Source: a virus | Strand: one strand, 5' to 3' | Virus record (IMG/VR): IMGVR_UViG_3300022857_000035 | Span: 1 to 32,325 of that record | Length of the DNA stretch: 32,325 nucleotides | Notes under the pieces: generated by a model | Database searches by the model: none | What the model was told of the DNA's origin: nothing | The model's input: the letters and a program-made list of their open reading frames with translations, nothing else | In this document: in pieces, positions 23,923 to 24,566 of the stretch | Position numbering within the stretch: the first letter of the stretch is position 1 | How the letters are laid out: the number at the start of each line of letters is the position of its first letter | Position numbers and translations under genes: made by a program

Positions 23923-24028
23923 TTTGTATCCCCTACGGTTCGGCAAGCCTCACCAGATGTTTAATTAAATATGCTTTTATATATATTATTCACTAAATGA
24001 TACGTTTTAATATATATTTATTTTAGGT

Positions 24029-24058
24029 GTTATAAACCCTTTTACTTCGAAAAGTAAA
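24029..24058 (-). promoter_or_regulatory. Promoter for the replication gene cluster
   Basis: Minus strand: TTTACT (24053-24058) and TATAAC (24029-24034) with an 18-bp spacer, or TTATAA with 17. The -35 arm lies in a 20-bp inverted repeat, TTTTACTTCGAAAAGTAAAA (24040-24059), related to the 15-bp repeats of the other promoters. Confidence 0.65.
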
Positions 24059-24234
24059 ATTCAAGATCTAAGGGCAAAAGCGACTTAGCGGTTAAACAAA
24101 TGTCTGTATCGTGTATCCAAACTATTCACAGCTAAAAACCGATTCAACCGTGAGGCTCTGTAGGGAGGGTCAACCCTGTATCTGACGTTTAATTTAAGGA
24201 ACCGTCAGCCTAAAGCCCAAACATTGTTTGCAAT

Positions 24235-24294
24235 AAGAAGAAAGGTGGGGTGTTGACGCTATAGGAGTCCATAGCTATAATTACCTTTCTTCTT
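24235..24294. repeat. 12-bp inverted repeat enclosing a plus-strand promoter
   Basis: AAGAAGAAAGGT (24235-24246) and ACCTTTCTTCTT (24283-24294) are perfect complements, 36 bases apart. Inside is a second pair, GCTAT (24258-24262) and ATAGC (24271-24275), lying in the spacer of the promoter. This arrangement suggests operators for a dimeric regulator, possibly the HTH protein at 24363-24566. Confidence 0.85.
24253..24281 (+). promoter_or_regulatory. Strong sigma70-type promoter on the plus strand
   Basis: TTGACG (24253-24258), 17-bp spacer, TATAAT (24276-24281, perfect consensus). The start is expected near 24288. It is the best promoter match noticed in the window and points against all the genes. 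Confidence 0.82.
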
Positions 24295-24364
24295 GCTCGC
24301 ACATGAAGTATACGCCCCCCCCAGGCGTAAAGTAAAGCCCTCCCGTAAAACGGAGGGTTTTTTT
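24288..24364 (+). ncRNA. Predicted small RNA 1 (about 77 nt)
   Basis: From the predicted start near 24288 to a terminator ending at 24364. It contains one hairpin, TACGCC (24311-24316) with GGCGTA (24324-24329) around the loop CCCCCCA, then the terminator hairpin. A peptide of 10 codons (ATG 24303, MKYTPPPGVK) is also possible but has no ribosome site. An exposed C-rich loop is a known way for small RNAs to block G-rich Shine-Dalgarno sites, and this phage uses AAGGGG. Confidence 0.65.
24338..24364 (+). terminator. Plus-strand terminator of small RNA 1
   Basis: CCCTCCCGT and ACGGAGGG pair around AAA (one bulged C) and are followed by seven T. On the minus strand there is no T-run, so it acts on rightward transcription only. 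The T-run touches the stop of the regulator gene. Confidence 0.88.
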
Positions 24365-24566
24365 ATCTCTCACAAAGTTTACAGAACTCATCCACGGTCA
24401 GCTCAAATATCTCGCATAACCCTTGCACCGTATGTAGCTTCATATTCTCCTGTTTGCGCCACTGAAACACTCTCTGACGGCTTACACCCATTAAGCCAGC
24501 TAACTTACTGCTGTTAACGTTATTAAGCTCCTGGGCTACTCTGAGGCTCTTTCCTGCATTTGTCAT
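24363..24566 (-). CDS. Cro/C1-type HTH transcriptional regulator
   Basis: 67 aa from ATG 24566 (MTNAGKSLRVAQELNNVNSS), with AGGTGA nine bases ahead. The longer open frame has no supporting start. The helix-turn-helix is SSKLAGLMGVSRQRVFQWRK (about residues 19-38), followed by MKLHTVQGLCEIFELTVDEF, the remaining helices of a five-helix Cro/C1 domain. There is no dimer or cleavage domain, so it is Cro-like in size. It lies among the most elaborate inverted repeats in the window, which may be its operators. It follows ssb in the same direction. Confidence 0.85.
   Translation of the reverse strand: MTNAGKSLRVAQELNNVNSSKLAGLMGVSRQRVFQWRKQENMKLHTVQGLCEIFELTVDEFCKLCER

Follow-up and report, generated by a model that had tools for sequence, protein, structure and literature searches.

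The window analysed here is a 32,325-base IMG/VR virus record from a marine virus of bacteria, and essentially all of its genes lie on the minus strand. The gene order comprises a tail fibre with an S74 peptidase domain, lysis genes, ERF, a YqaJ exonuclease, SSB and an HTH_26 regulator, followed by a non-coding gap of 440 bp. Beyond the gap are a small gene, HTH_39, a gene of 137 amino acids (aa), NinB, an SbcD-like exonuclease, DUF3310 and NinG/HNH, and the last block consists of the terminase, portal, capsid and tail genes. A strong terminator-like site at 18342-18315 (minus strand), before the terminase genes, is a possible late-gene control point for read-through. By protein, the nearest isolates are Pseudoalteromonas and Vibrio phages; no close DNA relatives were found among isolated phages. 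The window has no tRNA, and no integrase, CI-type repressor or par genes were recognised in it. A small-RNA (sRNA) cassette sits in the non-coding gap, and its features and those of the neighbouring region are listed in Table 1.

Table 1. Features of the non-coding gap and its surroundings (positions in the window)
Feature	Position	Strand	Basis or remark
HTH_26 (Cro/C1-type) gene, 67 aa	24363..24566	-	upstream of leader
Outer inverted repeat, perfect 12 bp, arms 36 nt apart	24235..24294		repeat search
sRNA promoter TTGACG-17-TATAAT	24253..24281	+	promoter scan, 11/12
Inner inverted repeat GCTATAGGAGTCCATAGC in promoter spacer, operator-like	24258..24275		comparison of relatives
Putative small RNA, about 77-80 nt, start inferred from the -10	24288..24366	+	fold, covariance model
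Hairpin 1, conserved loop (U/C)UCGCAC	24289..24308	+	alignment of relatives
Hairpin 2, C-rich 7-nt loop	24311..24329	+	alignment of relatives
Intrinsic terminator of sRNA, at stop codon of HTH gene	24334..24361	+	scan, alignment
Leader promoter TTTACT-18-TATACT, facing the sRNA promoter	24307..24336	-	scan, 9/12 in window
Structured leader RNA, about 300 nt	23985..24300	-	covariation
AT-rich tract	23955..24029		includes the 60 nt with the highest AT content in the window (88%, next 80%)
Hairpin with conserved tandem G.A, just before first ribosome-binding site	23937..23954	-	compensated stems
Replisome-organizer-like C-terminal-domain gene, 137 aa	22996..23409	-	sequence similarity

The initial annotation had described TTGACG-17-TATAAT as the strongest promoter, placed inside nested inverted repeats and followed shortly by a clear terminator, and all of these elements were recovered. 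The promoter hexamers (24253-24258 and 24276-24281, separated by 17 nt) are the best of 28 promoter-like sites between 20 and 32 kb, and nowhere else in the window does a site on either strand score 11/12 or more. Since shuffled sequences yield 0.68 such sites on average, the score alone is not significant. The outer repeat (arms AAGAAGAAAGGT, 24235-24246, and ACCTTTCTTCTT, 24283-24294) is not overwhelming, with one 12-bp repeat within 60 nt observed versus 0.18 expected from shuffles; the arms of the inner repeat are GCTAT (24258-24262) and ATAGC (24271-24275). Because shuffles approach both promoter score and repeat, the significance of the sRNA comes from its conservation. A folding calculation, named as a check in the initial annotation, gave -25.9 kcal/mol for the RNA at 24288-24367 (z -4.1), and no shuffle was equally good. 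The 6-bp hairpin with a C-only loop that had been proposed retains its stem (UACGCC/GGCGUA, 24311-24316/24324-24329) and loses the C-only loop, which reads CCCCCCA. As a key feature the C-only loop was rejected, since the loop varies among relatives and the C-richness is local. A ten-codon open reading frame (ORF) within the sRNA of the window (ATG at 24303) was also rejected, most relatives having no ATG there. The statement that this place has no rightward gene holds, but something else is present: the start of a leftward structured RNA lies within the sRNA gene.

The HTH protein was found at 51 viral loci, and wherever the flank was long enough the sRNA unit lies antisense just downstream of the HTH gene. 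The order of the unit in relatives is upstream arm, promoter with inner repeat, CCTTTCTT, hairpin 1, hairpin 2 and terminator. Promoter, hairpins and terminator recur in dozens of viral contigs, although related contigs are not independent and the alignments were partly selected with short anchors. Among the 26 distinct sRNA sequences aligned, 7 of the 14 consensus pairs have changes on both sides. One stem pair of hairpin 1 is G-C, C-G or A-U across relatives, and hairpin 2 has several unrelated-looking stems, its sequence being swapped and its stem kept. A covariance model of the sRNA identified 36 further loci (E <= 6e-6). Forty distinct variants, for whose selection the promoter played no part, have TATACT (15), TAAACT (15) or TATAAT (10) as their -10, and the T run of the terminator is retained on the plus strand across relatives. 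The folds of hairpins 1 and 2 are not clearly better on the plus strand than on the minus strand. Regarding known families, neither the sRNA nor the leader had a match at the Rfam 15 gathering score in the window and six relatives; for the sRNA, RF02278 (Betaproteobacteria toxic small RNA) reached 21.8 bits against a cut-off of 50, and RF02837 (anti-hemB) reached 18.3 bits against 49.5. Because the cassette, the compensatory changes, the -10 and the terminator are kept in relatives, we take the small RNA as real. The regulated phage small RNA of the initial annotation is therefore well supported by sequence comparison: its promoter and terminator, whose joint loss from relatives would have spoken against it, are retained together.

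The same annotation had named the Cro-like protein of the next gene as a likely controller, and on this point the comparison of relatives argues against it. The inner repeat switches type from GCTATA..TATAGC to ACTGT..ACAGT with an unchanged recognition helix (VSRQRVFQWRKQENMKLH), and a very different HTH is found beside the GCTATA type, which is the type of the window. Co-variation of HTH and operator was thus rejected, as the operator type changes independently of the recognition helix. Since the inner repeat varies while the helix is constant, the adjacent Cro-like protein is not supported as controller of the sRNA promoter.

The conserved parts of the sRNA appear to serve a second transcription unit on the opposite strand. 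All 26 variants have the linkers AAGTAT and GTAAAG unchanged, and the hairpin 2 between them is freely swapped. On the minus strand the linkers read TTTACW-17/18-KATACT, corresponding to a -35 and a -10 (54 variants listed). A promoter pattern had been used to select the list of 54, so the leader promoter draws its independent support from the invariant columns of the 26 variants, which were not chosen on the invariant TAT and GTAAAG columns. As the linkers would form a minus-strand promoter, the conserved loop of hairpin 1 would be the start region of the leftward RNA. Read on the minus strand, the outer repeat makes up the 5' stem (P1) of the leader. In the window all 12 bp match, and some lineages preserve the stem with different bases; as a universal feature the repeat was rejected, being weak or absent in L173, L199, L201, L202 and L224. 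Both double roles, of the outer repeat as leader stem and of the conserved linkers as leader promoter, had been overlooked in the initial annotation.

In the minus-strand alignment of 47 leader sequences, the consensus structure has an energy of -37.6 kcal/mol (covariation term -10.5), and 28 of its 43 pairs show compensatory change on both sides. The reverse complement is about half as good (-17.0). As G-U combinations far outnumber A-C among the paired cells (181 versus 3), the structure is assigned to the minus-strand RNA. In the 3' part of the leader (about 24100-24030, minus strand), CCCUUAG pairs with a CUAAG upstream; an AAGGG downstream of it has two potential partners, this same CCCUU and the 5' CCUU, so that the structure may switch. 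At least 119 viral contigs carry the leader pattern; the leader has a wider distribution than the sRNA. A similarity search found no leader in PLSDB plasmids, and the single match of the pattern in bacterial genomes (L269) was rejected as chance, lying in what seems to be coding sequence without the rest of the RNA. Upstream sequence was sufficient at 87 distinct leader loci; the sRNA cassette is present at 46 of these and missing at 41, so the sRNA is an add-on to the leader and not the reverse. Leaders without the cassette directly follow the HTH gene or a divergent gene. Since about half of the leader-bearing viruses do without it, the sRNA is dispensable to the leader.

The AT-rich tract comes next after the leader. 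In three of five long records (the window and two others) no 60-nt stretch of the genome is richer in AT than the one found here, and in two more it ranks third. The hairpin that follows is GGU-GA-GG-CUUG-CC-GA-ACC or GGC-GA-GG-CUUG-CC-GA-GCC and is a possible translation element. Leader, AT-rich tract and hairpin are conserved before first genes that fall into about 70 clusters; this first-gene slot (loci L173-L268) looks like a gene-exchange hot spot, with HNH-type endonucleases, a DNA methyltransferase, winged-helix and small proteins. In each of the 46 loci that were long enough to test (at least 2.5 kb), the 137-aa gene follows downstream of the leader. A conserved block of its product is similar to part of a phage replisome organizer (52% over 59 residues, phiRgIBDN1) and to part of a Vibrio phage replication initiation protein, and no Pfam family matches the protein. 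On this similarity, the gene may be described as a free-standing counterpart of the C-terminal domain found in phage replisome organizers. Neither the window nor eleven leader-bearing records contain DnaB-type helicase, DUF1376, Phage_rep_O or IstB. DnaB is present in the related Pseudoalteromonas phage Pq0, and in Vibrio phage 1.184.A the HTH gene is directly followed by DUF1376. One relative, a viral record of 32,132 bases (L277+L278) with its main ORFs on one strand, is probably complete because it has a 99-nt terminal direct repeat; no helicase, primase or polymerase was recognised in its ORF sequences, part of which were searched against libraries. GC skew was uninformative as an origin marker, being monotonic, as expected with genes on one strand.

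Considering both RNAs together, we think it somewhat probable that the small-RNA gene is an OOP/pO-like counter-transcript restraining the replication-linked leader and its operon. The rightward sRNA promoter would face the leftward leader promoter, so that each polymerase crosses the promoter of the other, and because the promoters point head-on with inferred starts about 12 nt apart, the polymerases could collide or occlude. From these starts, sRNA and leader share about 12-16 nt of complementarity in a 5'-terminal part that includes the hairpin-1 loop of the sRNA and half of the 5' stem of the leader. Head-on interference by the sRNA unit would lower leader transcription, and pairing of the sRNA with the nascent leader would probably add to the restraint. 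Lower leader transcription would mean less transcription through the AT-rich tract, and the accessory gene, the winged-helix gene, the replisome-organizer-like gene, NinB, NinG and the late genes would also be restrained. Sequence comparison establishes the conservation and covariation of both RNAs, the overlap of conserved promoters and a location between the 3' end of a Cro/CII-like gene and a replication-type gene downstream; the transcription of both RNAs, their start points, their pairing and the direction of the effect are what we infer. Against the counter-transcript stand the plus-strand hairpin folds, which are not clearly better, the dispensability of the sRNA, the 9/12 score of the leader promoter and the overlap with the HTH gene, of which there is hardly any.

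Alternatively, the region could be an RNA-primed origin, in which the leftward RNA would be an RNA II-like primer or R-loop former opening the AT-rich tract, and the sRNA an RNA I-like inhibitor. We consider this unlikely, even though a number of observations agree with it: the conservation of leader and AT-rich tract while the next genes vary (about 70 clusters), the position of the AT-richest 60 nt in three of five long records, the absence of the four replication families named above from the window and 11 leader-bearing records, the probably complete 32-kb relative whose ORF list has no recognisable helicase, primase or polymerase, and a phage precedent (PMC7157519). However, the conserved hairpin and the ribosome-binding site come immediately afterwards, an arrangement like that of an mRNA leader, the presence of the replisome-organizer-like gene means that a protein initiator may exist, and sRNA and leader overlap at their 5' ends only, far below RNA I/RNA II. 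Quite unlikely is a specific form of such an origin, protein-light and proper to small marine phages, in which the leader would open or prime the AT tract and the replisome-organizer domain would recruit the host helicase; the sRNA would then be a copy-number or timing inhibitor, module-swapped like plasmid incompatibility loops. The sRNA could also act in trans, its pyrimidine-rich 5' end and C-rich loops (CUUUCUUCUU, CUCC, CCCCCC) blocking ribosome-binding sites of host or phage mRNAs, and its closeness to the leader would be incidental. Many variants do have a C- or pyrimidine-rich loop, and there is a weak, sub-threshold likeness to RF02278 and RF02837. Both Rfam scores are far below the cut-offs, however, the loop becomes CAUCAGU or CAGCAGU in several lineages, and no sRNA occurs away from the leader in the loci examined, which were mostly found via the leader or its neighbours, making action in trans distinctly improbable. 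That the element works as DNA only, with the repeats as operators of the leftward promoter beside a bidirectional terminator and the rightward promoter as a by-product without functional sRNA, is very improbable. In its favour, hairpin 2 is placed in the leftward promoter's spacer, regulators could bind to both repeats, and the promoter score alone is not beyond chance; against it, a conserved plus-strand -10 and a rightward-facing terminator U-run would be unneeded, and HTH and operator do not co-vary.

If the counter-transcript reading is true, control over the replication region lies with a convergent sRNA promoter and a structured RNA in a group of small marine phages without a recognised helicase, primase or polymerase. 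The lambda pO/OOP arrangement would then recur in unrelated sequence, a structured RNA family without an Rfam match would be added, and the locus would offer a compact, testable module for the start of replication in such phages or their switch to the second operon.

Structured 5' leaders ahead of the variable genes of a long operon are known from HK022 put and other antitermination leaders. The leader described here likewise precedes the variable genes of one long operon; in contrast, it is much larger, and antitermination is putative, with the terminator-like site at 18342-18315 downstream. In ColE1, RNA I is a short RNA of three hairpins that counters a long structured RNA upstream of an AT-rich region, and the present locus shares this arrangement. 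Complementarity over the whole length, as between RNA I and RNA II, was not found, the overlap being about 12-16 nt from the inferred starts. The locus also differs in the replication-type protein gene nearby and in having no Rfam match; priming is a proposal here, and the AT-rich tract is compatible with a long RNA acting as primer as in ColE1. RNA-based origins have been described for the parABS mycobacteriophages RedRock, Alma and LadyBird (PMC7157519). These have in common with our locus a phage region with non-coding RNA, linked to replication and without an obvious classical initiator, but they are extrachromosomal prophages with parABS, and no par genes were recognised here.

In phage lambda, less pR transcription passes through the origin because of the convergent promoter pO (PMC3985674), from which the short OOP RNA beside cII is made (PMC3985674, PMC5869508). 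The locus shares with OOP/pO a short RNA that has its own promoter and terminator, is oriented against the operon, has a small regulator gene on one side and a replication gene on the other, and converges with operon transcription as pO does with pR (PMC3985674, PMC5869508). Judged by sequence only, the gene order agrees: HTH, sRNA, leader, small gene(s) and replisome-organizer-like gene. OOP overlaps cII by 52 bases, whereas here the overlap is a few bases and the terminator ends at the HTH stop (24363). Unlike lambda OOP, there is no LexA-type box (exact CTGT-N8-ACAG) anywhere in the window, a facing promoter lies a few tens of bp away and a large structured leader follows. Given the small overlap and the absence of the LexA-type box, lambda OOP is an analogy in layout and not in membership. 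The sRNA unit probably brakes the replication genes, much as the OOP RNA region does in phage lambda.
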